Source of the DNA: Undaria pinnatifida
Taxonomy: Eukaryota; Sar; Phaeophyceae; Laminariales; Alariaceae
NCBI GenBank assembly: GCA_012845835.1
Contig: JABAKD010000026.1
Span: 15,554,158 to 15,618,157 of the forward strand
Direction: 5' to 3'
Length of the DNA stretch: 64,000 nt
Below, piece after piece: positions 1 to 63,893 of this stretch. The notes beneath the pieces were generated by a model that worked only from the letters and a program-made list of their open reading frames with translations, searched no databases and was not told where the DNA came from. Both the position numbers and the translations under genes were made by a program. Position 1 is the first letter of the stretch. Each line of letters opens with the position of its first letter.

Positions 1-66
1 TCCAAGGCCGGCGTACCGCTGAATAACTGCGCTGGAAGAAAAACAAGCTCGTTCTGGTGTAGGAAC
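1..66 (-). CDS. LRR exon, cut by the window edge
   Basis: On the minus strand an acceptor (CAG at 67-69) opens a frame with the core QNELVFLPAQLFSGTPAL. The visible 66 nt equal 1 + 21 codons + 2, so six more bases before a donor would give the usual 72. It is the close sister of the exon at 57171-57242: most bases match, including the CTTCCA and TTCAGCGGTA blocks. The donor is outside the window. Confidence 0.7.
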
Positions 67-3000
67 CTGAACCAGCACACGCGGGAGAAGACGCATTAGA
101 CGCGGTGAAAAGAAAACTCCCAACATAATTTGCACCATTCGCCGGAACGCGTGACATAATTGCACACATGAGTCTAACCGCGCGGGGATCAGTGAGTTGC
201 GTGTTTTTCGGACATTGCAATATGCTCCTGTTTGAAAGTCAACGAGCGCCGTCTTGGGGGCAGTGAAGGCCTCCGTTGTTTTTTTCCGGCTATTCGATTT
301 CTATGAAGAACAGAATACCTCGTAGCCCCGAACAGGTATGGTTTCGAGTATGAAAATAATCCCGTGGTCCAATAGATGGCAAACAACAATTATTGAAAAA
401 ACCTAAGACATTGCATACATAATGAACTTGCTAAAAGTTGGCTACTAAGCGAAGGTAGTGCTAGGTATGAGGGTACAGTGAGTGTCTGATAGACAGGCCG
501 TGATGGTATCAAAGTGCTAACTCTATAGAAACACGTCTCCCTGAAATCGCTCCCTACCGTAAAGCTAGCATACTTTAGAAGTATAGTACAATTAACATCT
601 TGGGGTTGCGGTGCGGAGCGCTCAATTATTTTGTGCGACATCATGGGTAATGCAGGATCCGGGACAAACCAGACAGAAGAGATCCCAGTATGTTTTTCGT
701 ATCTGCACCAGTTGCGGTACTACGAAGTTCGGTGCCGTCCGCTACCGAATACCTTTGTGTAGGAACGAGTGAAGGCCGGACCATTCCAACTACCCAATAG
801 TCGTTGGTTTGTGGTTCCGTCAAGATAGCGGTATCTCGAGCACGCCTTAGGCCAACACGCCGTCAAGGTTGGTGAGCTGTCATCGGCCGTAAGACGCGTA
901 GGTAGGTCAACACCACCGTCCGTCATCAGAGCTACTATAAGAGGGTTGCTCCATATTCTCCATCGGGATATGGACCGCTCGTCTGCGTGGTTCAACACCT
1001 TGCTAAATACAAGGCCTGAAAAGATAGGTTTCCTCCCTCCCTGCCGTGATGCATAGTCTTGAACCAGTTCAATGCCGGCGTTGCATCGTTTTGAAACAGA
1101 TCAAAGTGCACATGCTTGAACCATATGCACGCTTACGTCCGAACCGCAGCAACCCAAGTTTTATAACTCGACCCTCCCTCCTATACCGACCTTCGACCGC
1201 AGCTGGACCGAGAGGCCCATGGTCGATGGCATGGCACGTCCCCGTGTGTTAACGCGCGGATTCACATTATACGCAAACGGTTAATGTGGAACTCCCTGAT
1301 AACGTGTGTTCAACCAATCCATGCGCGGTACAATGCCCATTGATACCACCACAGCGTGACATACCGTACAGTATCATGCAGCGTAGCCTTGGTGTTTGGA
1401 CATGTTTTATGGTTTTGGTGTGCCCGTTTTCGGTCGCCAAGGTCTGCGATGGGCAAGATGAGGGCGCCTTGGCCGACTGGGTTCACTTCAAACAGTTCAT
1501 ATTCAAAAATCTATCAAACTCCATGTCGGCTGGCGGCACTCCTAACCAACAAGCTCAGCTCCAGCACCTTTTTCAAACCTCTATGCGTCCAGCAAACACC
1601 GGACGTGAATGGTAAGGGTTGGTGCTCTACTCCGTCGAAGAGATCAAACCGTCGGAAGCGACGAACGTTTACTTTTGTTATTCGACGATTGGATGCGAAA
1701 GAAACATGTTCAACTCACAACTCCCATAGTTTGTCCAGACCGTCGAAGGTGTCCGCTTCAATCGAGGTCAGCTCCGTTCTGTAAAGGCGCCTATTGGTCG
1801 CACACAAGCAATAAAACATAAAGGGAAACCATGTCAGTAGTTCCCCCCTTTGGCATTCCCATCGTAACAGAAGTGTGCGCGTTAGGGACAACACCGTGGT
1901 GGTTTATAGATGCTTCCGCCAAACCAAACGCGCCAACTCCTTTCCTCGCGTGCGGTTTGGCATTGTACACATTGGCGCACATGAAGAGCTGACAAGAGGC
2001 CGACCGGGCACACCCTCTGCGAACAAATTTAGTGCCGTAGGGTATACGTATTACCCGGTACAAGCAGCCTGCTGTAAGGGTTCACCGAAATGCTGCAAGG
2101 CTACTCGCTCGAAGAGCTCCACACGTTCGTATATAAAGCGCAGAATCAAACCTTTGACGCGCGCGGCCGGACCCCCATGGCGACGACGACGAATATTGGT
2201 TAGTTTTCGGACAGTATACAGTTGAATGCGGGATGAAATATTGCATGGCCTAGGCCTGGAAAGGAAACAAACCCAAGTTGACTTGACTTGACTTGACTTG
2301 GCTAGAAAAAAACAAGATCTCCAGCAATATTGTTGGGTTAGTCTATGATTTTGTCAAAACCTGGTTAGTCTATAGTACAGCGGGCGTCTTGAGATCACCA
2401 TGAAGGCACGTCCCTATGACCGATCCCACACAATGAAGGCACGTCCCTATGACCCATCCCACCCTAGTGGTATAGAGGGAATGCCACTGATGGCACAGGC
2501 TGGGACGGCATCGCGAAGATTTTCCGGGATAAATCCTATTCTTCGGACAACGTACTAACCAAACGCCGATCCTTCCATGGAAGCAGGCCCTTCTGCGGAG
2601 ACCAATTTGCATTATAATTTCTCATACCTCTGATACTTCAACCGGCCATGAAGTAGATGCCTCTCACAACGCAAGCATTCATCTCTTGTACCACATCTAA
2701 CTGGTTTCCATCCGTTTCGCGCTTGACCCCCAACCGTTGTATCAGGGTGGGTGACTGCAAGCTACCAACTTCATTTGTAAACCAATCCTGACGGCTTCCA
2801 GATATGTTTCCTGGGAAGATTTACAGCCCAAGTCTCGGAAAGCACAAGGTGCACATGTACACCTGTACACTTGTACACTTGTACATATGTACACCAGTAC
2901 ACCTGTACACCAATACACCTGTTTATCTGTACACCTACACCTATACACTGTACAACGCGTGAATGACGGAACACTTACAATTGTTGGAGAGACGTGAGTC

Positions 3001-6000
3001 GACTGAACGTGCTTTCCGGCAGGGTAGACAGCGGGTTAACTTGAAGCCCCCTATGGAAGGGAGACAGCCGACAACAGACAATTCGGGCAAACCACGGAGT
3101 AACACGTGAGTACACAAAGGTGGGGCAGCTTTACTGGGGGGCAATGCATGCGGCGTAAACAGGTTTTGCCACCCATTGGCAAGACATACGGAAAATATTT
3201 CGAACTTCCGATCCCCGGGGTACCACACACAGCCAAGAATTGCTGACCAGCGCTAAACATCGATCGCTACGGGGGTGAGATCACCTATGTCGCTATGTCG
3301 AGGTGGTGCCCGTGACCTCTACCCATTTGGTGTTCAACCCTTTTTGCCTTTCTGATACAGGCACCCGCGCCATCACGCTGATTGATGTGCATCGCCAAAC
3401 ACAATTATTCGTGTTCCGGGTTCCAGCAACGTGTAGGCTCAAAGCGCACGTGTGGCCAACGCTAGTGGTAGAAATGTGGGTACCTCTCTAACTGTACCTT
3501 CAAAATAACTCTCAGGTATTCAATGCAGAGGATAATTTCGATATTTCTGAGGTTCCAAACTTGAGGTGCTTATTCTACTGGCCGGAATCGAATTCAATCG
3601 ACTCCTACAAACGTGGTTCGTCCCACCCGACGAACAACGCCCTTCGGCTGGGTTGCAACTGAGAGAATAAAAAAACAGCACAAAGTGTTTTCAATGGTAT
3701 TGGCGGCGTCCTCAGTTGAGGAGCGGGTCGATTGCCAAAACCCCCGACGGCCTGAAATTACCACTGGTACTTCTATCGCAACACCCGTCCGTATCGCTTA
3801 AACCGTACCAGTTCGAATATTGGAGAAGGAACCACTCACAGATACTGCAGCGAAGTCAGTTCTTGGAAGGTGTTGGCCGGCACCGTGGAAAGTTCGTTGT
3901 ATTCTAGGTCTCTGCGAGATCGGCAAAAAAAAGGCGAGAGAGAAAATCTGAGCATGCGACGCACAATCGTTTACTACGTCGGGATGTGTAGTGTGTCTAG
4001 ATCGTTATTGTGGCGATTCTTGTCAAACTAGTTTTTGTACAATTTAAAAAAAAACAATACGAAGACAGGATTTATGTACACGTGTATCCGAGAACATTTA
4101 CTATGGTTGGAATTTACCCAAAGTTTAAGTTTGAGCGGCACTCTATCCGCACTCTAGCTAGGTAGTATTTCCTTGTTTTTTGGCAGATCGCCAGCGTAGT
4201 TCGATCCAAAGATCCTATTCGTTCTCCCGTATTGGAACTTCAAGAAAGGAAATTTAATGATTTTAACAACCATAACTCACAGAAATCCTGAATATAATAT
4301 GAGCAAAGTAGACATCGAAACAACACGCCCGCGTGTGATTGAAATCGCTTTTGCGTGCCGACTGCGTAATCCTCGGTAGGGCGTTTCGTTGATTCAACAC
4401 AATCAGGCGATGATACAATCAATAGGTCGATAACCTTTGTGGAGTGCGGCTTGCTATCCCCTGAATGCCTGACCCAACGGGGCCTATCCTCCGTAACGAC
4501 CTATAAAATGGCCAAATAACAGCAGCTGGTACACAACAACTAACGAACCTATACCTTCATCAAAATTTCGGAGGAGGTTTACCGGATAGATCGAGCATGT
4601 AGCATGTGCGTGTTGGGGAGCACTAGGTCTATTCTACGACATGCCGCCCGCTCCAATCAGCGACTGACACACTTGCAGCAATCACTTTGTCCGTACTTGC
4701 GAACCAAAGAAAGAGTTGTATCGAGAATGGCGGACAGCGGTGGGCTCGAGTGACGCCACCTTGTTAAACGTTTTGGGAATGAGGAAACGTATGCCCTAAA
4801 GATGCGCCTTCACAGCCAAGTTTCATAACACTGAAATTCCCAGCTTTCAGAGAGTGAACTATGCAGAGCAGAAGGCTGGCGTGTTGATTTTGAAAGTCCT
4901 TCATCACCCAACCATCGTCCTGTCAACGCCGCCTTAGGATTGGAACGGCTTAAGACAATGACGCGTCGGGGCAACCGTGTTTTTCGCTCACAAGTGCTCC
5001 AAACCGGGTGTGCCATCGAAGATCCCCTCCTCCAGGGTGGACAAGTCATTGAACGAGATTTTCCTGTTGGCGATGGACAGCGGAGAATATAACGTTGGGC
5101 ATTGACACGTTGTACAGACAGACATTTTGATGGGGGCACGCTTTTTCGGATATGATGACCCATAATTATTGTGCCATATTACTTACATTGCTTACTAAAG
5201 GATAAGGCGATTGTGATTAACGACCGAGTGCATCCCGGTAAACAGTTTTCCATGATCTATATAAAACTGCCAACAAAAGTGAATGGCGTTAATGATATCG
5301 TGACTTAGCGTCATCGGGTTAAGCACAACCGGCCGCAAACAAAAGAAAATATGAAAAGTTCCGCAGCTATAGTCTAGCACTCGCGTCTACCATTAGGGTG
5401 TACCCCCTTGTTGTCTTACGCTCCTTGCTTGAGGTGGTCCACGACCCGTCCCAAAACACATGACTGATTTAAAAATAAATCTATCACCTCGTCGGCCTGG
5501 TACGTAAGTCCAATCACATCGAAAAGGACATACCGTATCTCCCACGAGTACTAGGCAATTGTTCGGTTGAGGAAACGTGTCCATCAGAACTAGCCTCGGC
5601 CAAAATGTGCTTTGGCTGCGGTACGTATGGCATCAATGAATGATTCCGGTTTGGCCGTAAGGGAATCGGTAAAAGATCGTTCGACACGTATCCCCCTTGT
5701 GGGCGTCGGTTGAACGAATGACGTCAAAAACCGACGAGTTTGCTAGGTATTCAATTTTTCGGAGGGATGCTGTTTTATAGCGATACCGACTTTCGTTTAA
5801 AGGGTCGACTTTGTCAAAACGAAATAGCCTGTTGTGGAACCATCTCCCGGCCGTGCCTCCTGAAATATGGTGCCCTCGCCCCCCCGATTCGATAGTTCGA
5901 TATTCCTTCGTAAGATAAACCGTGTACGAACGTCAACCATTTTAATGACATCCTTGGTCGGATCGGGCAGCCATGAAGAGTTTGTCAATGAAAAGGGTCA

Positions 6001-9000
6001 TTTTGGCACGGTGGGGGCTCGTAGCTTTGGACGACTAATTTGCTATATACAATATGTTGTTTCAAAAACCCTTTTGCACCCCCACGTGTCCTCCCTCTCT
6101 CCCCCTCCCACCCCCCCGTCCCCCCTCCCCCCTCCCTCCACCCTTCCTCCCCGCTCCCCCCTCCCTCCATTCCTCCCCCCTCCCCCCTCCCCCCTCCCTC
6201 CCCCTCCCCCATGCCCCTTCCCCCCTCCCCCTCCCCCCTCCCTCTTTCTCCCTGTTGACCCTGATAGCTACACTGTAGTTCCTAGGGGAGTCGCCGACCT
6301 ATATCCTTAACGAGGAACACACACCGTGCGCGATCGGAGTATCACCCACAGCTTGCAAAGATCAGGCAGCAGGTGCATCTACCTCTTTACCGTGGTGCGC
6401 ACTCATTCAACCGACCAGTGCTACATTGAGATCTCGATTCCCCCCCCACCATCACACGCCTCTTCCGTAACTATTAATAGTCGACTCAGGCACACGCTAC
6501 GGTAGAGGTACAATACCATTTTAATACGGTTATGAGCCTCGTCACTACTTCGCCCGAAGCATTTAAATTTCAATCAGCATGAATGTTCAGCCAGGCGGAC
6601 AAACGTGTCTCCGGTCGGGCGCTTGAATCAATAATCGAGAATTACAAAACGCGAACAAGGCTTTCCGGTGATTGGGGATTGAGGAGTTACAACATGCAGA
6701 AACTAGTGTAGGTGAGAAGTGCAACATGCCTTCGTCATCACTTACAGCCACGTGAGGGATGGCAGACCGTCGAAAATGCCTTCCGGCAAGGAGCTCAGAG
6801 AGTTCGTCCGAAGATTCCTGGTTGGTCGCGGTGATAAAGAGAGACCATTAACGTTATCAGTGGTGGGAAAAACGTGAGCTTGTCACTGGTGTTTGCGGGG
6901 GCGATAGTGACCGCTAGATACGCACACACCCATTTAACTTTGATGTTCCGTTACCAAGGGTATGGCGCGCATGAACACAAAAAAAATGAACTGTTCCAAC
7001 AAAAGAATACATTTGATCATGGACGGGAAGGTGGTATATACGTAAAAGGCCGTGAGAGGCAATCTTGCTCAACTGAGTTGTTCACGCCGGGAACGTAACC
7101 AGTACCGCCGAGATGCCCCGCGCCGGCAGGGTCTGAGCGTGACGAGTAAGTCGGTAGGACAAACGCTCGCCCTGCCATCAACTTCCTCGCGAAGAACCAA
7201 TGAGTGACCGCATAGTACTCGTTAGATGCCTGTACACATCTCACCCTGTTCATATCACAGCGTGGAACATGTCATATTCCTTAATACACTCACGCTGTTC
7301 ATGATCACAGGGGGGAGTTCCCGAAAATTACCTTCTTCATGAGCGCGTACACAACCGGCGACATGCGCGAACGAAGCATTTCATTAAACTTGTGAAAATG
7401 AATTCACACGGCATCTTCGCATTCTGAAGGCCGGAGTGAGCTGCTACATGTGTCAAAAGAGGACTGGACCTGTATGTGTAAGACAAATGGTGACGGTGTA
7501 CAGATACTTGTTGCAAGGACGAAGCATCTAACCAACCCCCGCCCGCCTCGTACCGAACAACATAGCTGTTTTACAGCTGAGTCATCCCACGGTAGGGGTT
7601 GCAGTTGTAATATTGATCCAAAACGTCCCTTGGGCGATTGAACACTTCATGTAAGGAACTGCCGGCTAATGAAGAAATTTTGCACAAGTACACATTTGTT
7701 GAGGCCTGAGGCATAGGCGCTTGGTCGGGTTGTGCGAACGAATTCCTTCGACAATAATTTTTCAGTGTGATATTGAGCTCCTCATGTGTAGATCTAACGG
7801 ACTTTCTGGTGCACTCCTACTGTGGGATGGCTCATACGTTGTGGTGGATTGAGTTCAATAGAAAAGGCGATTCTCGGATGATGTTCACGCAGTCAAGGCC
7901 CGATCTTGACTCGGTTGTCGCTCACAGTTCTTGCAGAGATGCCAGGCCCGTGAAGACGCCAGACGGCAGGAAGTCCATCCAGTTCTCGTGCAGGTGTCTA
8001 ACTCAAATTATCACAGCCGGAACATTCATCACCAGCGAAACCAAGGGATGCGCGGTGGATGGTGGTGTTTCGGCCACAGGCACATGATTTTAGCAAAGTT
8101 CCATTATTTGAATACGGTTTCAACTATTTTGCACGACGCACGTTCTACTCGGTTTTGATTCGGTCGCGGCAATTGATGGTGTTTTGTTATGACAACCAAG
8201 CCTACGCCATGTGGAAGGGTATTCTCGTTTACCTACCCAGGTTTAAATCTACTCGCACGAGCGGGTCTGTACCTCACATGAACTAAGATATTTACGGCGA
8301 TAATTCGGGTGCCGTTCAGCTTAACATTCCCATTGCGAATTTCATTGCAAACTTAACCAAAACGGCACTTAAGAAGGAAAACGGAGCAAGGGCGTCATGC
8401 GCCCAAGTGACCCGAGCAACCGCACTAGATGATCAACACCCACCGCTACCGTAGGCTTGATTTGACAAACGCCACGGCAGATAGATTTCACGACAGATAG
8501 GTTTCAAGAATGCGACACCTGCTTTACGATAGAGGTATAAGTGCGTGTCGGCCAAAAGTTTTACTTTTGCGGCTGGGGCTTTTTAACTGAAGGATCTAGT
8601 CTATAATCATCGAAATGCCATTCGCGGTACACTCTTGACACGCAAGCTGCATATTGCACTAACGAGCCTCGGATTGAGCTGTCACGTTTCTCACCGTCAG
8701 CAAATGGACGAGGTGAACAGCGCATACTACCTGACAAGTGAGGTCTACGAAAAATATGGTGCTTTGGTGTCAGCTCCTGCCTTGGGAGCAAGCGTGTGCA
8801 GTAACGACCTACCTGGTATAAATGAGGTGACAACACTATAACCTCCACGATCACCTCCATAAGAAAAGCAGGTGCCACACCTAAGCTTCCGGGGCAGTGT
8901 TTAACGTACAATTGGCCTCCGACCAACCGTACGTGGCTGTTCCGTTCTGAATTCTTTGACGAAAATCGCGCATGAGCCCAAACTTCCCTAGGCAACACGA

Positions 9001-13743: not shown

Positions 13744-15387
13744 TTTACCGCCTTTTTCATCACCGGTATTGACCCTCCTTCAAACACCTCCCTATAATTG
13801 GCGTAGCGCTACGCATCAAGTGCGGAGTTACACAGAAAATTACCAACAGTACATAAGCCTAAGACCGCAAGGTACAGGCGACTGAGACCACCATCGCGGG
13901 TGACCCCGAGCAACTGAAAAACCAGACCCCAGTAATCACCCGCCTACCGCAGATATCGTATTTTGTCGCATCATAGTTTACCATAGCATTGGGGATATGT
14001 ACCACACAACTGAAGCAGCACAGAATTCTAGGACATCAAAGCAATTTGGGGGTCACGCGCCCGAGTGACCGCAGATCACTGCGAAGAATAGGACCCAAGG
14101 GTGACCGCCCTACGTTGGCGTTTGTCCAACTTAGTGGTTGAGGAGCTCTATACCAAAATCAACAACTGAGTTCCGGCACAAATTAAATCAAATACTGAAA
14201 AATATAATGTATGGCCTAGTCTAGGTATAAAATAATCGAAAATGAAATACCAAAGTGATATTACGCCGAGGTTGGGTCAAGGACTCCCGAATATAAAAAA
14301 TGAACACATGCAAACCACTACATTTGTCGTAACAGGCCTTCCTTCCCGTATGCGTGATTGCTATGATACCTCCCCTTAAAGAGAACGCATAGATCGCTAA
14401 GAATGAAAAAGTCCTCGAGGGGAACAAAGAGGTCTGGGAGGCTCCGCGAGAGCCGCGTGCTACGATGGAGGTTGCACTTTCCGTCAGAAATGTTTTCTGA
14501 ACTCGACAGGGCTTCTTAACCCTATATCGTCGGAAATGGTCCATTTTTATAACGACTCTCCTTGTAAAACTGGGACAATGGATTTTTCATCCGGTCAGCA
14601 GTTTTACTTTTTCCTCAAATCATTCCTTAGGACACGTTGTAAGCTGTGCTAACCTCGTAAAGCCAGGAACCTTAGAAAGACCATTGTGCACCCTTACAGT
14701 AGCACGCGTTCAAACAAAAAAAAACGGCCCAAAAACGCATTCACGACGCCGCACTGTAGCAGGCGATTGTGTGGAACGGCTTCCCGCCGCCGTGTTCTTG
14801 CGCAAAAACTCATGATGCCTGGTCTCAGCACCATTTTCGAGCGAGGGTGTCAAAAGCAAGGGTGCGTTGTTCTTGGTAACAACTTCGTGGGCTTACAGGG
14901 ACTGAGCTCCTGGGGCGCAGGCATCGTCCGAAAAGCACGCGTTCAGACCTGTGGCAAGAACGGGTGGGCGAAGAGCATAAACCCGCAAGACATAACGACA
15001 GGCGGCCATATAGTATAGGAAGGTAAGTGTAGCCGCACGATGAATAAATGTATTTACCGGTTTAAGCGTCAGAGCGAAAGACCGAAAGGGTTAGTACCTC
15101 TTACCGATAGAAGAATCGGACGCAAGGCGCGTCCGAGGCAGCATGGTGCCAGAAGATCGTCGCTAGGAATAGCGCATTAATGTTAGGGTTTAGGTGGAGG
15201 TAGCATGTTTTTATCGATTTTGTCTCTGGGTGTTGAGACTCCTGAGTAACAATTCTTGTTTAGAATATGTACCAAGTAGGTTATTTTGTTGAACAAACGA
15301 CGCATCCTACGATAGAGGTAGTTGTTAGTTTTGGTGTGGTGTGAAGAATATGCTTTCTGGGTGACGGGGCTCCTTCACACAAAAACG

Positions 15388-22520: not shown

Positions 22521-22554
22521 TATAAAAATAATGAGCAATATATAAGACTATATA

Positions 22555-25551: not shown

Positions 25552-25875
<324 letters not shown>

Positions 25876-35489: not shown

Positions 35490-35539
35490 GGAACATCGCA
35501 AAGGTTAACACTACTACTGCCCGGATTTCATATATTATC

Positions 35540-52400: not shown

Positions 52401-55400
52401 CGAAGTGTGAGGTGGTCCGCACATCGTTTATCAGTTTTGGAGCTCCAAAACGCGCCGAAGCCGCGCTAGGGTCGGAGCCCTAGCCTGGGGTGAGATTGGG
52501 GTTAAGGGTAGGGTTAGGTTTAGGGTTAGGTTTAGGTTTAGGGTTAGGTTTAGGTTTAGGGTTAGGGTTAGGTTTAGGGTTAGGGCTAGGTTTAGGGTTA
52601 GGTTTAGGTTTAGGGTTAGGTTTAGGGTTAGGCTTAGGTTTAGGTTTAGGGTTAGGTTTAGGTTTAGGTTTAGGTTTAGGGTTAGGGTTAGGGTTAGGTT
52701 TAGGTTTAGGTTTAGGTTTAGGGTTAGGGCTGATCGACGCCCTCTCGCGATTTGACAAAGACACAAGAACAAGAACCCAGAGATAGCTTAAAACCTCTAC
52801 ACTAGACTAAAGAGCCAAGTGTATATTTGGTACTTTATCCGGTATGATTTGTGGGAAAAAGCTGGTAAAGGCGCCTCTGAGCACAGGATTCACGGGGAGA
52901 TATACTGTAGGTGGTGGCGAGACCGTCAATGGGGTTAGCTTAGGGGTGTTTCGATGCTCAATGCACATTATTGCCCATTGCACTGGACTCATGAAGCGGA
53001 AGGCATCTCAGATTCTCCGATCACTTCAACACGTTTATCTCCTCTACAGCAATGTGGACATGACCCTGGTCAAGCCACGGCAGGGAAGATGTTCCATTTT
53101 TCTGCTTGTGTCATGCCGCTACCGCGAGCGGATCTGTATGTCTCTGAAAAGACGGATTGGAATTTCGTTCGCCGTACGTACCAACCGCTTGGTCATTGGG
53201 GGGGCTATCGCTCAGTCTAAAATTCGATACAAGTCAGGCGCGATGGTCTTTGCGTCGCCTAAACAGAGTGCCCAAACACTGCCCCACGTACCGAACTTGG
53301 GGACCAGACGTATCTCCATGTAAGCTATGTGGAATATCAGCGGGGCCATTGGCGCGGTGGCGGAATGAGAATCTCTGAACATATAGAAAAGTGCCTGCCC
53401 GATTGCATGGCCATGCATGTTTCCGGTCAACAGAGGGCTAAAATAACGAGCGTACAGTTTAACTCTCTAGGCTCTAAAAGCTGGATCCTAATCAAGGTAA
53501 ACATCTGCGATTATTATGTGGTGCTACCTTCCGCCACTTACAATGTCTCCAATAGCGGCGTGCCGCTGAAGATTCCTTCCGGCAGTTCGCTGAGCTCGTT
53601 GAAATTGAGGTTCCTGGGGTGTTACCGAGGGGTAGGCAATCACGGCCAGGCAAACAAAGGTGGACAAAACGATTTACTTTGGAGTGTCCAACATGAACGT
53701 ATCACTTAAACGAAACCATGGGCGCATGATGACAATACGTGTATGGATAGTTTGCCTACCAGACAGACCAAATCCTTTACGTGGAATGTGTCGTTCAGGG
53801 AAGACAGATTCCTGATCTCTAGGATCTGCACGGCCTACAGATCATCTTGCCGAGAGGAGGGCCGGACAGCCGTAATTTCCAAGCACACTTTTCCGCGCAG
53901 TTGGGACTGCACTGCATATCCTGAACACCATATCGTAGCCACAGGTAGATAATCCATGTACCAAAGATTATCCAGCTCATGGTCTGTGCGGTGTGCCGAA
54001 CATTCTACAGCTTTGGGTCACTAGAGATAATTGGCGTTTAGACACGGGCTAAGGCTACAGCAGGCAGCAGGGGGGAGGGATGTCATTCCCCTAATCTCCT
54101 CAACCGAATTTGGGCCGGTCGCGTGAACGGTCCGGTCTGGTGCCTCAGAAAAACGCTACGATATAAGGGTGAGGGGCCTCAACATTTCCAGGCTACTTGC
54201 CTGAGAAGCTCTCTACCTCACGCATATATGGCTTCGATAAAGCAAAAGGACCACCGCGTGTTGTGAAATGGGAGCCCTTGAACCCAAACTCGCCAGGATG
54301 TCACCAACGTATTTTTCCGTGCACTGTTGTTTTGTTTTGTAAATCACGGTGTAACTCGACGGAAAAAAATACCCTGGTAAATAATAGGCCATTTCGTTTT
54401 GGATCATTCTCGTCGGGTAACCTAAGTCATGGGGTTTTTCATCCGGTAGCATTTTTTTCTTCGTTTTCTCCGAATCAGCTTTTGGGACCCAGTTCTTAGG
54501 CTCCCAAATAAAGTACATCAAGAAAAAAAGTGGTGGACCTCTATCGGCAACACGCGTCGTTTCGACACCTACACAGCATACAGTCATGGGTTTGCTGATC
54601 GAGTTGCATTTTGATTTTCGTACAGTAGCTCCTCAAGCGGAGCGTTTTCGAAAACCAGTTGGGGCAACTCTATACACATGGTAACGCCGTATCGCAGGGG
54701 GTGCATTTGATCACTGTCAGGCTCTTAACGTTAAGAGCGCTATACCTCACCCCAGACCTGCCGTTGTAAACGTTTAACGTGTGGATACATCAACAGACGA
54801 AAAGGAAACCCGATCAAGAATCCCAAGTAGATTAGCTTGCAGCGAACATTGTATTGAATCGCCACTGGAATTTCGACGGTATGACGACGATATCGTGACG
54901 ATATCGTGACGATATTGCGACGATATCGTGACGATTTTGCGACGTTAGCCCGGTCAGTGTGAAGTGGGGTTGCCGGAACGTGCTACTGTACCCCGTTGCC
55001 GTGAGCCTAGCGGCGTATCTCCTTACTATTACTGAAGAGCGCGAAAAAGGTTTAATATCACTCACAGCTCTCGTAGGTTCCCAAGACCATCAAAGGTGTC
55101 CGACGACAGCTCGGCGAGGTTGTTGCCGGCCAGTGTTCTATTCGACGCACGTTGCGGGATATTGCAAGGGAATGGGAAGAAATGCGATTACGACGCAGAT
55201 ATTCGCGCAGTGGACATATCACGATATTAACAATTTGGATCTTACTTCCGCCCTTAGTGTACGTTGTGCAGGATCTGTGGTTTCCAGGTCCAACAAAGGG
55301 GATGTGTGGTAGACCATGTATGCAGATCACACTGTTCCCAGGCGACGCAGTGATCCATACGCCGTGCAGATCTAATGGGCCAGAGACCTATCCACCCCCA

Positions 55401-58400
55401 ATGAGACAGAGACAACAACTAGTGAGGATCTGATGTGCCCGGCATGTGGATTTGTGGCCGCTGTGCCCCCGACATTTGGATTTGTGGTATGTAAAGAACG
55501 GTCTGCCGCTTTCAGCTTTGTGGCCGGGTGTACATCACAGCGATTCGATGCGAATCGAGCAGCACAAACAAGCTATAGAGTGGTAATAATGTGAACCCTA
55601 TGCGCGACAATCACCAAGATAAATCCTGGCATGCTGGTGAGGAGAATCGAGAAAAAGACGACCGTGATCATCGCTTGGCGACAGGAAAGTCTCAGGATTT
55701 TTACGAGTTGGGCAGGAGAGTATACGTGATTACTTGAAAACAAATAGTACGAGTAGTACGTTTCGAGTCGACAAAAAAGGGTGTGGTGGCCATGCCTTGA
55801 TCGTCAGTACGCGGGGAGTCGGTTATCTGACTTGATCAAAGTGCGCGTGTTCCCTCTGGCATTTGTAGCATATTCACGCAGATGAGGGATGAAGGATACG
55901 ATGCCCATTTTGAACGTTGAGTTTGGGCTAGGGAAGGGCTAAGGTCAGAGTGCGGTAGCAAGTTTTCACTGCGAAAATTAGGTCGATCGTGTGCGTGCCC
56001 TGATGCCCAGCTCAAAAATGGCATCGCGATCGATGGTGTGCATGGCTCATGGCATGGTTCAAAGACGGTCCCGAGGCTGATGGTGTACGTGGTTCAGTGC
56101 CTAGCTCCAAAGGGGTCTCGAACGAGTTTTGTCGTCGTAGCAAAATGACGGAACCGAAACACACATAGCCAGCTGGATAAGCGTACTAGTGGCGCCGAGT
56201 CGCTGAAAGCAGAGGCCCAAGAGAGTCCGAAAAACAGATCGTTAACACACCACTTACACATAAACATACGTGTACACAGCAACATACACATAACCATAGC
56301 AGCGGCCCAGTACCTTGAAGCTGTTTCTTGGCGCAGAATCACCAACGACTCCATGACGGGGGCTTCGCATCGGGGAACTGAAAAATGTACACGACGGTAG
56401 TCACTCGCACGAGAGAATCGGAGACGCTGAAAAGCTAGAGACTACCGTAAATAAGTGACTAGTCTAGTGACTAGTCTAGTGACTAGTCTAGTGACTAGTC
56501 TAGTGACTAGTCTAGTTGTGACCAACACTATTTTGCCGCGGCCTTGCTACAAATTCAAGAGGGAAAATGCGGTATATTTAACAGACGACTAGAGGTTACA
56601 GGTTACAGGTTACAGGCTAGGAGACACCTATCAAAGATGTGCAGCTTGCAGCGCAAAGCATTACCTACCCGTGTACGTACACCTAGGTATAATATGCGGT
56701 TGCCCATCAAGTTTCAGTTTCAGGTGGGTCGTCATAGTCAGCGTTTGCGCTCGATACAAACTTCCTGAAATGCGAACCCTCGTCAATTTAAGGTGCACTG
56801 CGGCAGCAAGCGTCAAGGGCGAAGTCTCAACAAGCTCTATTTATCACCGAACAAACGACGGGGCGTCTCGGTGTGTTGTCATTTGCAATGACTCCTTCGG
56901 AATGTTGCGCTGTAAGCGGTCAGATATATAGTCTTGAGCTCGGTCTACAGTAGCACAGTGCATAACTCCTCTACAAAATCAACATAAATACAACGCGCAG
57001 GCTGATTTGCCCATTTGGGAAAGCGTGCGTACTGTGCTCACTTCAGTATAGCTACCCCTTCCCAGATTCCATATTTTCTTGTAAATCCCAGGCTTCTTTC
57101 TTAGTGCCCGGCCTCTTTTGAGGCGCTGTACTATACCAACTGCTGCCAGTTGATGTGTAGCGACACTTACATGCCCTCCAAAGCCGCATTACCGCTGAAT
57201 AGCCCCGATGGAAGGGAGCTTATCTCGTTCGAGTTTAGGAACCTGGACGAGAAAGAAAGGGGTGCCGCCACAAGTAAGAGGAACTAATCTGTCGAGCCAT
57301 GCAGGAGGTTCGGTCACTATCGGAGTACGTTTTGATCCTAGTCGACGGGGATTTTACTGCCGCGTCAGGTTCACTCACAGTGTCGTCAGAGAAACCAAGT
57401 CGTCGAAGATGTCCGCTTCCAGTGAGACAAGCCCGGTGTCCGCGAGGTGCCTGTTTGAGGTAAATCGCAAAACAAGCCATATGGGGTTGGACACCATCAA
57501 TACGTTTGGGTTCGCCGCCACCATTCCATTTGGTTTAGGTCGTCGCCAACAAGTCAAACTGGGGGCGAAACACAAACGAACTGGATAAACGATTGAGGTT
57601 CGAAACCTGCAAGAATGGAGTGAATATTTCACGGTTATGAGGTTTCGACAAAGCATCAATCACGAATTAAAACAAACAAAACAACCAAACGGTACCAGCG
57701 AAGCAGGACGAAGGCGCACCACCCAACGCAAAAGCGCTAGGGGTTAATATGCGTTTGTACAAAGGGTTATTGGTACTTTGTATGGCCAATATCTCGCGTA
57801 CAATTCTTGATGCCTAATCAATTCAACAGGAAACTTGCAGTAATAAATTTTCAATCAGCGTACTCAATATCTCTTTTGGGGGGAGGGTATATACGGGGTG
57901 GGGGGTGAAAAAGAACTAGTCCATACTAATCAAGACCAAACTCTGAAGGGGAACAATGCATGCATCTCGCTGCTTACCGTCAACAGTGCCGTCAAATACT
58001 ACTGCATATTTCCACTGTTTTAGATGTTGACTCCAACCGTTGCTTTGTTTCAGCATGGTCTATATTCGCGGTTTTGCGGCGGCGCACAACACACTGATGA
58101 CGCCGCCACAACGCCCCGGTTCTAGTGCCCCGAAACCTTGCATCCTCGGGGGCATGTGTTGGACTCCGACCTCCTGCAGAGCCGGAACATTGGGACTTGA
58201 GAAGCAAATGCTATACCAACGCCTCACAATCCATTCACACCACGACCATTCCTCTCGGGTTTCTTTTACCATGCAGCAGCAGCAGGTACACGCTTGGCGT
58301 GTGGCTCTATGCGACACGTGCTGTTAATACTACTCGAAAAGGGAGTACAGTGCTTCTTTCCGACCAAAATCATCTGTGTCTCACGGGTTGATACGATACT

Positions 58401-61400
58401 ACTACCGTGGGGTCAACTCATCAACAAATGAAATAATCATTACAAACATTTCTCAACTAGAAAATTTCGCTGGAACATCATTTGTCTTGAAAACAAAGTT
58501 CGTTCAATGGTCTAGTCTATATTAATAATACATGAACTTTTGTCTAATGGCAAGACTCCCGAGTTAATTTTTCTCAAACCTCTTTACGCTGGGCCAGAGA
58601 GACGTCACCGAGGGCAGCAGGGCCTCACAGAAATATGGCCACACCGTTATCATTGCATGCATGAGACATTACCAGGTACCGTATACGAGGTGTGCAATCG
58701 GACAGCACACACACCAAGCGTACACGGTAGGCTTTGGCAGACATTCATATGGGTCAACCTACATACACGGGCTTCAAAATCAAACACCAGGTGTTAACAG
58801 TACGTGCCTGGGGCGGGCCACTCACAACACTCTCAGTTCGCTCAGTCCGTCAAAGATGCCGTCGGGCAGGGTAGACAAATCCTCGTTCCCTTGAAGCGCG
58901 CTAGCGCAGCAGCCGGCGACAACAACAACAGCACGCGGTGGCCCCAAACAATTGGCGTCACGTAAACAGCAATACGGCACCATGCGAACTACCAACCTTG
59001 CGTGGCTAAGATTTGGGTATGAAAACATCAAATATTCTAATGGTATTGAATTCGTCAAACGTCCAAGACAAATCCAACTCCTGGATATACATGCGAACCG
59101 GTATACCTCGTCCTAAATAAGATTCCCTACCATTTCGTTGTTTTCTGGCCTATTTTTTCATCGGTAATGGCGTGTGGCGGTGTTAGTATATTCGTTTTAC
59201 TCCACCCCATACGAAATAGAAGACGGCAAACACCGTAATGTCAGGTAAAATATGTTGTCGTTGTTCCCGTAGTGACGCATCGCCGCGCTCATTCTCCGCG
59301 TTTGGGGCTAAGGCAGCTACTGAAGGATGCATAACTATTTTTTTAATCTAGACCTTTAGTCTACCCGTCTTGTACGAGTCCTGTTCCACCGTTTTCCTAA
59401 CGCGCGTGTTCAAGGCCAGAGGTTCATCAACGTCAACACAGCAGATCGTGCCTGCAGATCAATTCGTCATCGTGGACTGGACGAGATATCATTGCATTTC
59501 ACTTGTGCGCGGCAACATCGTCATGCCAGGTGTCTCTGTAGTGCGTTGGAACCCGCATTATTTCCCAAACCCAACGGTAAGGAATGCCCTTGCTCGAGAA
59601 TGCACTCTACACTTAGACTACATATTATGCGGAGAAAATACTCGATCACGAGCTCCATCGGCGAGAGTTCCGGTACTACTCCACAACGGCAATATATCAA
59701 CGAACGCGGCCACTCGTCAATCAGTAGGCCACGTTCAAATTCTAACATTTCCACAACGTTTAGGGAGCTAGTGAGAAATACGTACATATACTTGATACCT
59801 GGTATTTTTTTCTGTTCCCCTGCGATCAACGAAACTCTGTGGCAAATCATGCCACTAAGTTTGCAAATTTGTAGCATTCTGCGAATAGGAACTTCGGATA
59901 CAACTCACAGAATCTGCAGCGACACCAAGTCTCCGAAGATATTGTCAGGGAGAGTGGTAATTTCCACGTATTCAAGTTCTCTGCGCAGTCGTGACGGATC
60001 GAAAACGAGGGTTACAACGGAGGGAGGGATATTCGAAAAACGTGAGGATATATCTAAATATCGCCTGGTGCGTTGGATACAGGCCGTTTCCAAGATAACA
60101 GACAGCATCACCACGTGGGAGGTGGACCTCTCAATCACACGCCGCCATCACTGACCTCGCAGTCTTTGCCAGGACATCTATCGCCGCGGTAATTCCGTTG
60201 TGGTAGAAGTGCTCAACAGGCCGAATTCCATTCGGATCACGAGCTACCATAACTATTTCCCCCTCACTGCGCGAGAACTATCAATCCTGGCGAAACTAAA
60301 CTAACGTAATCACCGTTGATCAACCAAGCGGGGCCGAGCACGTTATTTCTTCGAAAGGTCGGCGATCCTGTACGAGTGTGTACATGTCGGTACCGGCGTG
60401 TTGCTTGCACACTCCGGTATTGTCATGATCGGGTAGAGCCACTGGGGTATCGTGGCAATATTATAAAGGGTCACAGTGATGAGGACCCACGACATGCATA
60501 CACAAAAATCTACATATAAGTGGGTATTATAAACACAAACGATTTTTCGTCATATATTTACTATGTTCCACGAAACAGGATTTTTTCCTGAATACCAATC
60601 CACCTGCTGCCCCCCGGGACCCGCGGTACACACAAAAACCTATATATTCCCATGCTTTTGCTCACCATGATTGGTCCTCGAATTTGTATGTTTCTCACGT
60701 AATTTCCTCTCCGTTGACTCCGAACAAAGTTTTTCCTTTTGCCCCGTAACGTTCGTGGTGCGAAACGATGAGTTCTCTATTAATAATACCTTGCTGGAGA
60801 AACCTATGTATTCCCATGTTTTTGCTAACCACGATTGGTCCTCCAATTTGTGTGGTTCCCCGTGACTGTCTCTCCGTTACACTCCAAAAAAAAGCATTGC
60901 TTGTGCCCGGCAACGTTCGTGATGAAAAACGACGAATTCGCTGCGTGTGCACGGAGGATACTCTAATATCTTGGTGGAGGTTCACCCAACAGTATTCGTG
61001 CAGTCGTTCGAAGTTAACGATGCCGCAACGAAACCAAACGAAACGAGAAGGATAGCATGAAAAAATACTCTCATGACGTCGGCTGAATTTAGAGTCGATA
61101 CTCATGCTTGCAAGCTGGGTACTATATCCATCGGCCGTATTTAGTATGTTTTATATATCGAAACTTAGTATAAGATGAAATTGTGTTATGTTGCCTATCA
61201 TGTATAATAACCAACTAACGTACCAACAATTTCCTGAACACTTTGCTGCACTATTAAAAATAAAATCTCATTAAGAGATACTTCGAAGTACTAGGTAGTA
61301 GCAGGATACTTGCTACGCCCATAGTTCATACATTCATGCCGCTACGATCAGCACCAATCTTGGCAATAACATCACTCACAGGTTCTCTAGAGAGCTCATG

Positions 61401-63893
61401 CCGTCGAAGATGCCGGGAGACAGGGTGCTGAAATCGTTGAAGTCCAGCTTTCTGTTTCATCGTCGAGAGACAGAGGGTGCGTGGCGTGAAAAGAAGACGA
61501 GGGACCGGCCCGACATTATTATCGGGGGGGGGGCTGTTCGACTATTGGCCCATTCGACCATTGATACGTGGCAGGTATATCTGTTTCCCACCCTAAGTAA
61601 GCTTACCAGCACCGCCAATAGAACAAGCACCAACTCGACACTCCATGTATACACTCTGGACATGTGTACACTCCATGTGCACACTCCATACATACACTCC
61701 ATGTACACACTAGTCGATGTATACACTAGTACGATTGGATGTATACGCTAGGCTATGTATACACTCCAAGTATACACTCCGTGTATACACTAGTCGATGT
61801 ATACACTAGTCGATGTTTACACTAGTCGATGTGTACACTAGTCGATGTATACACTAGTCGATGTATACACTCCCTCTATACACTAGTCGGTGTGTATGTA
61901 TATATGTACACTCCCGCCAAGGCTTCCGTAGGGGGGGAAGGAGGGGGCTTATTTTTCTATTCCTACTTGAGGAAATTCGCGCGCGTGGTTATGGTAGCTG
62001 ACTTACAATAGGATACTGTAGAAAAATGTGTTCGTGCAGCGGTCCGAACAACCCGTCGGAAGGGCGCATCCTAGATAAAATATTTTTTGAAAGTATTGGC
62101 GGTATGTACGTCGTGTTCTTATCGTAGCATGCGGCAGCACCTCCTCCAACGGGGGAGCCCTAAGACATTCACAGTTTCCACCCCTGTTATACAATAGCAC
62201 ACATCATGGATTGGAACCCTTGACCGCATATCCCTCATGATCCTAACACGACACCAAACGCATCGTGCTATAGTACTGGTAGTACGGTAGACGAACATCT
62301 ATTTTTTGCTGACGGTGTTCACTTGAGGAGCTGAATATATATCAATACATTAACACACAAATACATCAATACTTCAATACATCAAGACATCAATACATCA
62401 CAGACACAACATCAAAGTGCGGCATTTTTTAACAATATGAAAGTGCAGCAGAATGAAAAATTGGGTTGCCTAGTAGTAGTGCAGCTCGAATACTACTACA
62501 CTATTACCAATAGTAATGCTGCACTGTTAATTTTACTACACTATATACTACTACCCAGTAAATGATGCTACACGAATACTACGCTAATACTACACTAATA
62601 CTACACTAATACTACACTAATACTGCACCAATCCTACACTAATACTGAGTACTAAACAAACACCACATTATTACTATCACTAATACTACACTAGCATTAC
62701 CGAGCAAGAACGAAATTGCGCCGCTATTGGGTCAAAAGGAGCCCCATCCGTCAGAAAAACAACATGATACTCGTACACGACAAATGGGCTGCTTTTCCCG
62801 CAGCACGCGTCTCCGCCCATTTATTTGACTACCTCGTTAATATATTCACGTTTGGATATTATCATCACGTTTGGATAATATATTATCATCACATTTGGAT
62901 ATTATCATCACGTTTGGATATTGTCATCACGTTTGGATATTATCATCACGTTTGGATATTATCATCCCGTTTGAATATTAGCATCCCTTGAGGTTCACCC
63001 CCTATTTGTATCTATCTATAGTTTCCCATCTATGGGTAAATTTCAGCCAAACGTTGGCTTGACTCACAGTTCGACGAGAGATTCGCGTGGGCCGTCGAAG
63101 GTGTTTGCAGGAAGATCGGCGATGTCGTTGTCCTCCAGGCTCCTGTATCAACGACCGCGGTATACAGTAGTAAAAATGCATACACAGAGAGAAGATGATT
63201 AATTATTTGTGCTGTTCAAGAGTGCAATAGAGATAAGAAGGGCTGGGGTATGCCTTGTGACACCATGATGTTTGGCAATCGGGCGACGGACGCGATACAC
63301 CACGGCTCCGGTAGTGCCTGTGGAAAGTGTGCTAAATCCGGGTAACTAGTTATTCGACGCTACAGTTGACACACGGTGTGCAGTTCTTCAGTTACGATCT
63401 TGCCCCTTTCTACGCATCGCTTTACGCACACGGCATACGAGACGAAGAGGATCAGCCCTGAGCATTTGTATTTCGCGCTTCGGTTGGGGTTAGATCTCTC
63501 GCTAGTATGAGATTGCTAGCTGTCGTAGACCTTACCACGTATTCGACACTCATTCGACACCATGGTTGGCGCACCCTGCGTACGAGACGAATATCACTCA
63601 TCGTCTATTCGGTGAAAATCCCCGTTGCAAAATTGTCGGAGCATCGGCGAATTTAAGGTGCAAGGTACACACCCATATGCCCCGTCGCATGCATGATATC
63701 AACTTCGCGGCCGATATTTTGTCCTTACTCAAAATCCGGCCACCCACGTGGCCTATGCCTTTGGGAAAGCCGGCAAAACTTGAGACGACAAGCAGACAGA
63801 TCCATTTATTTTGCCACTCACAAGAAGGTCAAATTAGGCGTGCCTTCAAACGTCCCCTCGTCCAGCGTGGTCAACTCGTTGGCTGAGATCGAC
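39637..63893 (-). CDS. LRR-EGF-discoidin extracellular protein gene, 5' partial
   Basis: Reading leftward on the minus strand: 14 single-repeat LRR exons (63893 to 46632), a tentative linker exon (45859-45696), an EGF-like exon (43010-42933), then a large exon with a Pro/Thr/Ala stalk and a discoidin-like domain (40442 to about 39714 or 39637). LRR exons are all phase 2; the EGF and stalk exons join in phase 1 (TGC G|TA). About 660 residues are visible. LRRs bind ligands, EGF modules act as spacers and discoidin folds often bind carbohydrate, so an extracellular recognition or adhesion role is inferred. No membrane segment or kinase is seen, though 3' exons may be missing. The start and signal peptide lie beyond base 64000. 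Introns are about 0.1-3.6 kb. A brown-algal identity rests on the one-repeat-per-exon layout. Confidence 0.68.
40443..42932. other. Intron between EGF and stalk exons
   Basis: 2.5 kb without recognised coding sequence. It holds a dispersed repeat at 41411-41512, whose sister is at 7716-7812, and a palindrome-family remnant near 42303 (CTCGCGCGAATGGCTC). Confidence 0.5.
42933..43010 (-). CDS. EGF-like domain exon, phase 1-1, 78 nt
   Basis: The acceptor TTCGCAG| is preceded by a pyrimidine-rich stretch, and the donor is TGCG|GTCAGT. The frame carries five cysteines in the pattern C-x5-C-x6-C-x-C-x8-C, including [15 protein letters not shown]. The C-x-C and the following Gly-x(2-3)-Tyr-x-C are hallmarks of EGF. 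A sixth Cys is missing or supplied from another exon. Phase 1-1 is the classical border for EGF modules and fits the downstream phase 1 acceptor. Confidence 0.75.
45696..45859 (-). CDS. Candidate linker exon joining LRR and EGF modules
   Basis: An acceptor (TAACAG) followed by 1 + 54 codons + 1 base to a G|GTAGGT donor gives 164 nt that start in phase 2 and end in phase 1. That is what is needed to connect the last LRR exon to the EGF exon. The frame contains [20 protein letters not shown], with one N-glycosylation sequon (NFT). It has no recognised domain; it could be an LRR C-terminal cap. Support is splice phase and an open frame only. A competing small exon near 44355-44410 also fits the phase. 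Confidence 0.35.
46632..46703 (-). CDS. LRR exon, phase 2-2, 72 nt (most 3' LRR of array)
   Basis: The core reads [19 protein letters not shown], with donor GT|GTAAGTG and acceptor CACCCAG. It lies furthest toward the EGF exon, so it should form the C-terminal LRR. Confidence 0.86.
47662..47733 (-). CDS. LRR exon, phase 2-2, 72 nt
   Basis: The core reads [19 protein letters not shown], a near-consensus repeat. The donor is CT|GTGAGCA and the acceptor is CCACAG. It is similar over its donor half to the exon at 7926-7997 of the second locus. Confidence 0.87.
48477..48548 (-). CDS. LRR exon, phase 2-2, 72 nt
   Basis: The core reads [19 protein letters not shown], with donor TT|GTGAGTT and acceptor CAACAG. 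LP is replaced by IE, as in the exon at 1719-1790. Confidence 0.84.
49929..50078. repeat. ATC trinucleotide microsatellite in intron
   Basis: TCATCATC/TCGTCATC units, densest at 49966-50078, just 3' of the LRR exon at 50143-50214 in gene orientation. A Ser-rich plus-strand frame over it is an artefact. Confidence 0.85.
50143..50214 (-). CDS. LRR exon, phase 2-2, 72 nt
   Basis: The core reads [19 protein letters not shown], with donor CT|GTGAGTT and acceptor ATCAG. It belongs to the TPAL-ending subtype. Confidence 0.86.
51034..51053. repeat. Palindrome-family variant in intron
   Basis: GGCCCCTCGCGCGAGTGGCC keeps the CTCGCGCGAG centre of the 18-bp palindrome with changed arms. It lies between the LRR exons at 51947 and 50143. 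Confidence 0.55.
51947..52018 (-). CDS. LRR exon, phase 2-2, 72 nt
   Basis: The frame [19 protein letters not shown] leads to a TT|GTGAGTC donor; the acceptor is GAAACAG. The conserved Asn is replaced by Ile and LP by LS, so this is one of the more divergent repeats, but length, phase and the VFEG block are kept. Confidence 0.78.
52359..52857 (-). mobile_element. MITE-like element with TTTAGGG/TTAGGG core
   Basis: The left end CACCCTACAAATCATACCAG..AAAGTACCA is mirrored by ..TGGTACTTTATCCGGTATGATTTGTGGG at the right. The 235-bp centre (52495-52730) mixes TTAGGG and TTTAGGG units. Its arms are homologous to the 35.2 kb element but inverted. It sits in an LRR-gene intron between exons 53542 and 51947. 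Leu-Gly and Pro-Asn frames over the core are artefacts. Confidence 0.75.
53542..53613 (-). CDS. LRR exon, phase 2-2, 72 nt
   Basis: The core reads [18 protein letters not shown], with donor TT|GTAAGTG and acceptor CCCCAG. It is a clean consensus repeat of the GT-P subtype. Confidence 0.87.
54389..54560 (+). repeat. Dispersed repeat, sister of 15388-15560
   Basis: Blocks CATGGGGTTTTTCATCCGGT, TTCTCCGAATCAGC, AGGCTCCCAAATAAAG and GTGGTGGACCTCTAT occur in the same order as in the 15.4 kb copy. It lies within an LRR-gene intron. Confidence 0.6.
54884..54943. repeat. 15-bp minisatellite ACGATATCGTGACGA
   Basis: About four units of GACGATATCGT(G) with small changes. The internal CGATATCG is palindromic. 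Confidence 0.8.
55066..55137 (-). CDS. LRR exon, phase 2-2, 72 nt
   Basis: The core reads [19 protein letters not shown], ending REL before CT|GTGAGTG; the acceptor is GAATAG. DTFDGL is shared with the exon at 1719-1790. Confidence 0.86.
56455..56516. repeat. 12-bp minisatellite GTGACTAGTCTA
   Basis: About five perfect units. ACTAGT within each unit is palindromic. Intron location. Confidence 0.9.
57171..57242 (-). CDS. LRR exon, phase 2-2, 72 nt
   Basis: The core reads [19 protein letters not shown], with donor AT|GTAAGTG and acceptor GTCCAG. It lies only 136 bp from the exon at 57379, by far the shortest intron between LRR exons here. It is the sister of the exon at the left window edge (1-66). 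Confidence 0.86.
57379..57450 (-). CDS. LRR exon, phase 2-2, 72 nt
   Basis: The frame [17 protein letters not shown] leads to donor CT|GTGAGTG; the acceptor is AAACAG. Asn is replaced by Thr and LP by LE. It resembles the exon at 1719-1790 in its EADxFD block. Confidence 0.84.
58826..58900 (-). CDS. LRR exon with one extra codon (75 nt)
   Basis: The core reads [20 protein letters not shown], followed by RVL, with donor TT|GTGAGTG and acceptor GCTAG. One residue is inserted between Asn and the following Leu (N-E-D-L instead of N-x-L). Phase 2-2 is kept. Confidence 0.84.
59909..59980 (-). CDS. LRR exon, phase 2-2, 72 nt
   Basis: The core reads [18 protein letters not shown], with donor CT|GTGAGTT and acceptor CGCAG. 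It is the sister of the exon at 3840-3911; they share the LEY start, the SLQ end and the bases around the acceptor. Confidence 0.85.
60636..60963. repeat. Tandem duplication, two ~164-bp units
   Basis: Unit one starts AAACCTATATATTCCCATGC at 60636 and unit two AAACCTATGTATTCCCATGT at 60800. Both continue through GATTGGTCCTC.AATTTGT, CTCTCCGTT.ACTCC.AA and GCAACGTTCGTG-like blocks. It lies in an LRR-gene intron with no shared frame. Confidence 0.75.
61380..61451 (-). CDS. LRR exon, phase 2-2, 72 nt
   Basis: The core reads [18 protein letters not shown], with donor CT|GTGAGTG and acceptor AAACAG. Consensus apart from LS in place of LP. Confidence 0.86.
61641..61912. repeat. Minisatellite of GTATACACTAGTCGAT units
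   Basis: About 16 units of roughly 16-17 bp, TGTATACACTAGTCGA with TGTACACTCCA variants at the left. GTATAC and ACTAGT are both palindromic. Intron between exons 63068 and 61380. Confidence 0.88.
62571..62695. repeat. ACTACACTAAT microsatellite
   Basis: Units TACTACACTAA of about 12 bp, decaying to the right. Preceded by short ACATCAAT repeats (62340-62400). Confidence 0.75.
62851..62980. repeat. Minisatellite TTTGGATATTATCATCACG
   Basis: About six units of 18-20 bp built on GTTTGGATATTATCATCAC. The open plus-strand frame is a repeat translation. Confidence 0.88.
63068..63142 (-). CDS. LRR exon with one extra codon (75 nt)
   Basis: The core reads [20 protein letters not shown], ending VEL before CT|GTGAGTC; the acceptor is GATACAG. 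The extra residue is in the segment after FDG (PRESL), unlike the 58826 exon, where it follows Asn. Confidence 0.84.
63822..63893 (-). CDS. LRR exon, phase 2-2, 72 nt (most 5' in window)
   Basis: The core reads [19 protein letters not shown], with donor TT|GTGAGTG and acceptor ACCACAG. Because its acceptor is phase 2, at least one more coding exon must lie upstream, beyond the window's right end. Confidence 0.86.

Follow-up and report, generated by a model that had tools for sequence, protein, structure and literature searches.

The window analysed here is the whole stretch of 64,000 nt of Undaria pinnatifida DNA at C33:15554158-15618157 (genome 511 Mb). It holds the greater part of gene A and the 5' half of gene B, two tandem paralogues each with 16 exons that code for a single leucine-rich repeat (LRR) and one further exon of 90 nt. 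A preliminary description of this DNA had listed 24 one-repeat LRR exons on the minus strand, and indeed 24 of 24 were recovered by an exon HMM, splice sites and likeness: 14 are exons A3-A16 of gene A (A4 and A7 with 75 nt), followed by B1-B9 of gene B (B2 with 69 nt) and the 90-nt exon at 12736-12647. The lengths are also as given before, with 72 nt in 20 exons (the one cut at the window edge included), 75 nt in two, 69 nt in one and 90 nt in one. That these form two same-strand arrays is correct; what has to be amended is their extent, because both run beyond the window and correspond to one gene apiece, with 16 LRR exons and the 90-nt one. The borders are of phase 2-2 in all LRR exons, so that the reading frame survives the use of any subset, and GTRAGY donors with AG acceptors, likewise noted before, flank all 32 LRR exons that make up the two full arrays. 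The donor is preceded by CT, TT, AT or GT, showing that the repeat is cut within its beta strand; the sequence encoded per exon is LxLxxNxLxxLPxxxFxxLxxLxx, with the first residue (mostly Leu) split by the intron.

For the search, 1259 phase 2-2 candidate exons were scanned in a 184-kb stretch (the window and 60 kb on each side; 5000 bases N), and the split first codon was fixed as Leu for each candidate on both strands equally. The HMM was trained on these exons together with ten of a relative and the scan is hence partly circular; only exons with stop-free frames and consensus-like splice sites were admitted, so that a broken exon would escape detection. We obtained 36 candidates above 8 bits, every one on the minus strand, which reduced to 31 distinct exons with scores of 24.6-44.4 bits once alternative acceptors were removed. 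The plus strand of the 184-kb stretch gave no LRR exon, its top score being 5.4, or 6.9 under looser splice rules. Exon B2 reached only 6.1 bits and is called from its splice sites, length and place. Both 90-nt exons were missed by the HMM and were recovered through length, splice sites and mutual likeness; the one of gene B has its homologue at the same place in gene A (13/23 aa identical, E 3.8e-6). A Pfam LRR_8 search of the genome returned nothing on C33 among the 30 matches listed, since one-repeat exons escape that model.

Gene A spans 69977 to 39637 on the minus strand, its array extending beyond the window, and consists of a likely signal-peptide exon, an N-cap, a 90-nt repeat, 16 LRR exons, a C-cap, three small exons and a last exon. 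Outside the window lie the likely signal-peptide exon (MRLTTVVSPLLFIVATTN, 69977-69923), which was placed by likeness to the gene B exon, the N-cap exon (69519-69468), the 90-nt first repeat L0 (67459-67370), also placed by likeness to its gene B counterpart, and the LRR exons A1 (66302-66231) and A2 (65433-65362), all on the minus strand. Inside the window and on the same strand follow A3 (63822..63893), A4 (63068..63142), A5 (61380..61451), A6 (59909..59980), A7 (58826..58900), A8 (57379..57450), A9 (57171..57242), A10 (55066..55137), A11 (53542..53613), A12 (51947..52018), A13 (50143..50214), A14 (48477..48548), A15 (47662..47733) and, as the final LRR, A16 (46632..46703), each of 72 nt except for the two 75-nt exons. 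The minus-strand 3' part begins with the C-cap exon (45484..45525; 42 nt, phase 2-2, 13 aa), for which similar exons exist in gene B and in a third copy, D, located 0.75 Mb away with 10 LRR exons found in 20 kb; its phases chain. Next come a small exon (44354..44409; phase 2 to 1, 18 aa), which has a similar one in B and a weak one in D (E 0.16), a Cys-rich EGF-like exon (42933..43010; phase 1-1, 26 aa, five Cys) and a further small exon (42554..42604; phase 1-1, 17 aa), the latter two placed by likeness and phase chain. The last exon (39637..40442) codes for a Pro/Thr-rich linker and a CBM32-like C-terminal domain (39715-40119) and ends with the stop. The phases chain across 23 exons and close at one stop; together with the likely signal-peptide exon this gives one open predicted chain of 795 aa.

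Gene B spans 16503 to about -30630 on the minus strand and has the same succession of exons. The signal-peptide, N-cap and 90-nt exons recur in both genes in one common order, and so do the five 3' exons. The signal-peptide, N-cap, 90-nt and LRR exons of gene B were checked at their splice sites, while its 3' exons were assigned through likeness; the end at about -30630 is that of a 264-aa open frame. On the minus strand of the window we located the likely signal-peptide exon (MPLTRLPGGLLFIVASVD, 16449..16503, phase 1 out), the N-cap exon (GLNACFSDDACAPGAQS, 14897..14948, phase 1 to 2), L0 as the first repeat (12647..12736, 90 nt, phase 2-2) and the LRR exons B1 (10216..10287), B2 (9124..9192, with its weak LRR score), B3 (7926..7997), B4 (6746..6817), B5 (4992..5063), B6 (3840..3911), B7 (2979..3050), B8 (1719..1790) and B9 (1..66, cut at the window edge and reaching -5), all but B2 of 72 nt. 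Exons B10-B16 and the 3' exons follow outside the window on the same strand, down to about -30630. The two M-hydrophobic exons upstream of A and B, MRLTTVVSPLLFIVATTN and MPLTRLPGGLLFIVASVD, are similar, have phase-1 donors and the common donor GGTGAGC, and are candidate signal peptides by likeness. Another candidate, at 75279, was dropped: no suitable donor was seen after it and better matching exons were found. At window position -46662, on the plus strand of the left flank, a third stretch (GLTSCLSNEACNSGSTFL) weakly resembles the N-cap (E 0.012); it perhaps belongs to another family member.

The window also contains a long CAA/TTG-type triplet repeat (25473-25885) and tandem repeats with 12- and 18-base spacing (31543-32019 and 52451-52764), the one at 52451-52764 being an interstitial, telomere-like GGGTTA/GGTTTA array. 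Between genes A and B, at 19482-22513 and 35531-36407, lie copies of dispersed repeats with further copies in the flanking DNA (about 84-88 kb and 113 kb), perhaps a mobile-element family.

A Pfam scan of predicted protein A gave six LRR families and one match below the cut-off (DHU1_N, E 0.08). The same scan detected no kinase, ROC-COR, NB-ARC or TPR domain, and we consequently rejected the possibility that the locus is a ROCO or NB-ARC-TPR gene, the latter being the other brown-algal type considered. No membrane-spanning stretch was seen by eye after the putative signal peptide. None of the EGF models matched the Cys-rich exon or protein A, neither in Pfam (E 0.1) nor in NCBIfam (E 1), a prokaryote library. 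The fold of CBM32 is also that of discoidin (F5/8 type C) domains. Of the LRR-EGF-discoidin protein proposed in the preliminary description, a predicted extracellular LRR and Cys-rich protein thus stands; its discoidin-like part is closest to CBM32, and the EGF piece goes unrecognised by Pfam.

For the C-terminal domain, a profile of 20 genomic copies, an alignment drawn from 30 CBM32-like loci out of 101 matches, retrieved the CBM32 module of the alginate lyase AlyQ as the best solved match, with E 3.1e-7 (two AlyQ sequences; PDB 7d29 and 5xnr). A second CBM32 followed at E 0.0095, and the other four of the seven listed matches, with E values of at least 0.5, are unrelated. The gene A domain alone matched AlyQ at E 0.038, and the Pfam CBM32 and F5/8C models gave no match to the domain. 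In the passages on this module, the AlyQ study (PMC5651945) describes binding of cleaved and not of intact alginate, a calcium ion held by the side chains of Asp209 and Thr214 and, via the main chain, by Asn206, Asn211 and Thr307, an Arg248 that may bind a carboxyl group, and a Trp303 that corresponds to the ligand-binding Trp of a relative. When these residue numbers were mapped by counting along the profile alignment, the equivalents of Asp209 and Trp303 were found to be kept in 20 of 20 copies. Arg248 is kept in 13/20, including seven of the eight copies most like that of gene A, and is present in both A and B. Among the remaining calcium-site positions, Thr214 is Ser in 20/20, Asn206 is kept in 19/20, Asn211 in 2/20 and Thr307 in 19/20. 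The domain differs from the AlyQ module further in its extra cysteines and short insertions, and it is joined to LRRs instead of an enzyme. AlphaFold, run on the single sequence, yielded a poor model (pLDDT 49), and a pattern scan for bacterial relatives gave 11 matches, none of them confirmed. From the profile match and the kept residues we conclude that the C-terminal domain is a relative of CBM32, which, as a remote homologue of the AlyQ module, plausibly binds alginate, perhaps alginate ends.

The 101 six-frame genome matches of the CBM32-like domain include some that are two pieces of one copy and some with stops; 51 are on C32 and 22 on C55. Clusters lie at C32:23.47-25.39 Mb and C55:8.96-10.78 Mb. 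One copy from C32 and one from C55 showed no LRR exon in a 10-kb stretch of each (about 9 kb of it upstream); in the C55 stretch, Cys-rich frames resemble Notch/LNR repeats by eye, which Pfam did not confirm. The Cys-rich exon has 11 genome matches, nine of them at E <=0.002 (six on C33, two on C1, one on C28), and eight of these nine have a CBM32-like match no more than 10 kb away, the exception being C1:1783564. LRR exons were seen at genes A, B and D and in a 5-kb piece of the copy at C33:14.38 Mb. This copy (C33:14386671) and the one at C33:13720579 are recent duplicates with a C-terminal pS of 0.07. In the 5 kb of the upstream part that was read, the 14.38 Mb copy has one LRR exon, which resembles exon 16 of D and A, and the 13.72 Mb copy has none.

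The preliminary description had called the LRR exons interchangeable and had seen in them a plausible pool of recognition modules, used by splicing or by genomic rearrangement. We compared the order of the exons in A, B and D. Exon-versus-exon scores were corrected for row and column means, which leaves the exon-specific likeness, and were evaluated with 200,000 permutations. Over all 16 exons A and B are colinear (z 4.4, p 5.5e-5). For A5-16 against B5-16, a stretch picked after viewing the gapped alignment, 12 of 12 pairs are above average (z 5.3, p 5e-6), and for A7-16 against the ten D exons the count is 10 of 10 (p 1e-4); controls in reversed order gave p 0.64 and 0.67. A gapped, order-keeping alignment, with a gap cost of our own choice, pairs A1 with B3, A2 with B4 and A5-A16 with B5-B16, and none of 3000 shuffles was as good. 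The A-D alignment is colinear over 10 exons (p 1.7e-3) and the B-D alignment over most exons (p 3e-3), with skips near exons 14-15. No one-to-one match exists between A1-A4 and B1-B4.

The same picture emerges at the level of single exons. The best nucleotide match is the colinear exon of another gene in 24 of 38 exons, where at most about 1.9 are expected; A3, A4, B1 and B2 of the 42 exons are excluded from this count, and the pairs A1-B3 and A2-B4 were set after the gapped alignment. At the protein level the best match is colinear in 16/38 exons, and reciprocal-best colinear pairs amount to 4/16 for A-B, 2/10 for A-D and 3/10 for B-D. Colinear exons are 52-60% identical in DNA, others 47-48%. 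Seven of the eight top A-B nucleotide identities among equal-length exons lie on the alignment path; the remaining one (A3-B5) would agree with a shift of two exons. Within one array, the identity between equal-length exons never exceeds 62.5%, which argues against recent exon copying. These comparisons indicate that the order signal is real but worn and that LRR exon order is largely conserved between the paralogues, the 5' difference between A and B being best explained by the putative gain or loss of about two exons.

With this we can weigh a rearranging recognition cassette, in which single LRR exons would be shuffled in the genome by unequal exchange or duplication, in the soma or the germline. 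The mismatch between A1-A4 and B1-B4, with its shifted pairing, speaks for such events, yet the downstream exons have stayed in place and recent copying within an array is missing. We regard single-exon shuffling as very improbable and rejected a free exon pool that works via rearrangement, since order is kept; an interchangeable use of the exons, as proposed before, is not supported, even if the 5' ends of the arrays do differ. A pool read by alternative splicing, in which each transcript would take a subset of the LRR exons and one gene would give many binding surfaces, fares better. The uniform phase would allow it, and Ectocarpus ROCO genes with this layout are reported with up to nine splice forms (PMC11378527). 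The invariant GTRAGY donors, however, would suit constitutive splicing, and the largely fixed order in three paralogues is neither required nor forbidden by the use of subsets. We consider such a pool unlikely, but clearly less so than shuffling of single exons.

A substitution check at exposed LRR positions had also been proposed, and we calculated pN/pS from colinear 72-nt pairs only (A-B 12/14, A-D 9/10, B-D 9/10). The ratio is 0.26-0.28 at the LRR scaffold positions, 0.58-0.63 over the LRRs as a whole and 0.15-0.30 in the C-terminal domain. At the concave LRR positions, which change most (Fisher p 8.7e-5 for A-B and 0.046 for A-D), it is 0.87 for A-B, 0.60 for A-D and 0.62 for B-D, with synonymous sites near saturation. 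The check did not deliver a ratio above 1 at any concave comparison and, given the near-saturated synonymous sites, we rejected the idea that positive selection is shown. The LRR scaffold and the C-terminal domain are under constraint, and the concave pattern agrees with relaxed or mildly diversifying pressure on a binding surface.

This constraint also bears on the question of whether the arrays are decaying pseudogenes. The introns, mostly about 1 kb and more and in some cases with repeats inside, could be taken as a sign of decay. Against it stand 16 intact LRR exons per gene with no gap in the count of A or B (intactness being a search condition), the low pN/pS of scaffold and C-terminal domain, and the frame of gene A, which closes. 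Decay is hence highly improbable, and we rejected it on the grounds of frames and constraint. A further process may have acted in addition and would be compatible with the reading that we prefer: gene conversion or unequal crossing-over may have swapped whole LRR arrays and C-terminal halves between paralogues, leaving large-block mosaics. For LRR exons 8-15, the distance of A to B (pS 0.51) is smaller than that to D (0.63), although the bootstrap 95% range of the difference, 0.008 to 0.243, almost touches zero. In the C-terminal domain A is instead nearer to D (pS 0.47) than to B (0.67; range of the difference -0.36 to -0.07, bootstrap). Only three genes enter this comparison and their synonymous sites are near saturation, so that we hold block exchange to be a tentative proposal.

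The exon layout as such has been described before. Passages of Teng 2024 (PMC11378527; Zambounis 2012 is cited through it) report 72-bp, phase-2, one-LRR exons for brown-algal ROCO genes, together with shuffling and alternative splicing, and the match in layout noted in the preliminary description therefore holds: LRR-ROCO genes have, like A and B, one LRR per 72-nt exon of phase 2 in tandem arrays. Unlike these, protein A is without ROC-COR and has a likely signal peptide, Cys-rich pieces and a CBM32-like end, and the exon order is largely conserved between the paralogues, not shuffled. The concave sites of the ROCO repeats are given as 14, 16, 18 and 19 of a 23-residue frame (PMC11378527). 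The splice point within the repeat seems to differ as well, as the ROCO text (PMC11378527) implies an intron just after NxL, while in genes A and B the intron separates LxxLxx from LxLxxN, which would place it about 14 residues away. From Saccharina japonica, 15 non-ROCO 'shuffling LRR exon' sequences are known, most with LRR motifs only, for which an LRR reservoir was suggested (PMC11378527). Judged by this description, they may include relatives of genes A and B; our guess concerns sequences that differ from the present complete genes, which have caps, a C-terminal domain and a largely fixed order.

Two further systems invite comparison. Plant LRR-extensins (LRX) have a secreted LRR domain and a Pro-rich part, are wall-bound and lack a kinase. 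Protein A is predicted to follow the same working scheme, without being a member: by eye we saw no extensin-type Ser-Pro runs, and attachment to the wall would occur through the carbohydrate-binding domain. The LRX are named as wall-sensing proteins in a passage of PMC8307928. Gonadotropin receptors are membrane receptors, and their LRR exons are likewise of phase 2, one LRR each and of similar size, presumably with an unrelated origin. These animal genes are named for their LRR exons in PMC11378527. New here are the LRR-CBM32 architecture, the gene anatomy and the kept order, the 72-nt phase-2 layout being already published (PMC11378527). In a literature search that left subscription papers mostly outside its scope, we found no paper joining brown algae, leucine-rich repeat and CBM32.

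In summary, we consider it probable, at roughly 70%, that A and B are tandem paralogues for a predicted secreted, wall-bound and plausibly alginate-anchored LRR/CBM32-like protein whose exons are spliced in a fixed order, and that the layout is a relic of exon duplication and not an active combinatorial system. The predicted product would consist of a signal peptide, an N-cap, one 30-residue repeat, 16 LRRs, a C-cap, a Cys-rich EGF-like piece, a Pro/Thr-rich linker and the CBM32-like end. It would be secreted, with all LRR exons normally joined in one order. The C-terminal domain would bind alginate and so hold the protein in the cell wall, and the concave LRR face, the fastest-changing part, would bind other ligands. 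The one-exon-per-repeat layout would be the trace of a past in which the gene was built by exon duplication, since when only occasional gain or loss of exons may have occurred, about two near the 5' end.

Oligoguluronate-type damage signals trigger kelp defence. One may speculate, as a long shot, that the proteins are wall-bound sensors of alginate breakdown, in which the CBM32-like end would take freshly cut termini and the concave LRR face would recognise microbial proteins or partner receptors. If this were true, members of the family would be candidates for receptors or co-receptors of alginate damage signals. Independent of this, neither exon shuffling nor a combinatorial repertoire can be deduced just from finding one-repeat exons of equal phase in an array: the LRR exons described here appear, for the most part, to have kept their order through gene duplications. 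The predicted family that combines LRRs with a CBM32-like domain offers concrete candidates for proteins that sense the cell wall or bind alginate.
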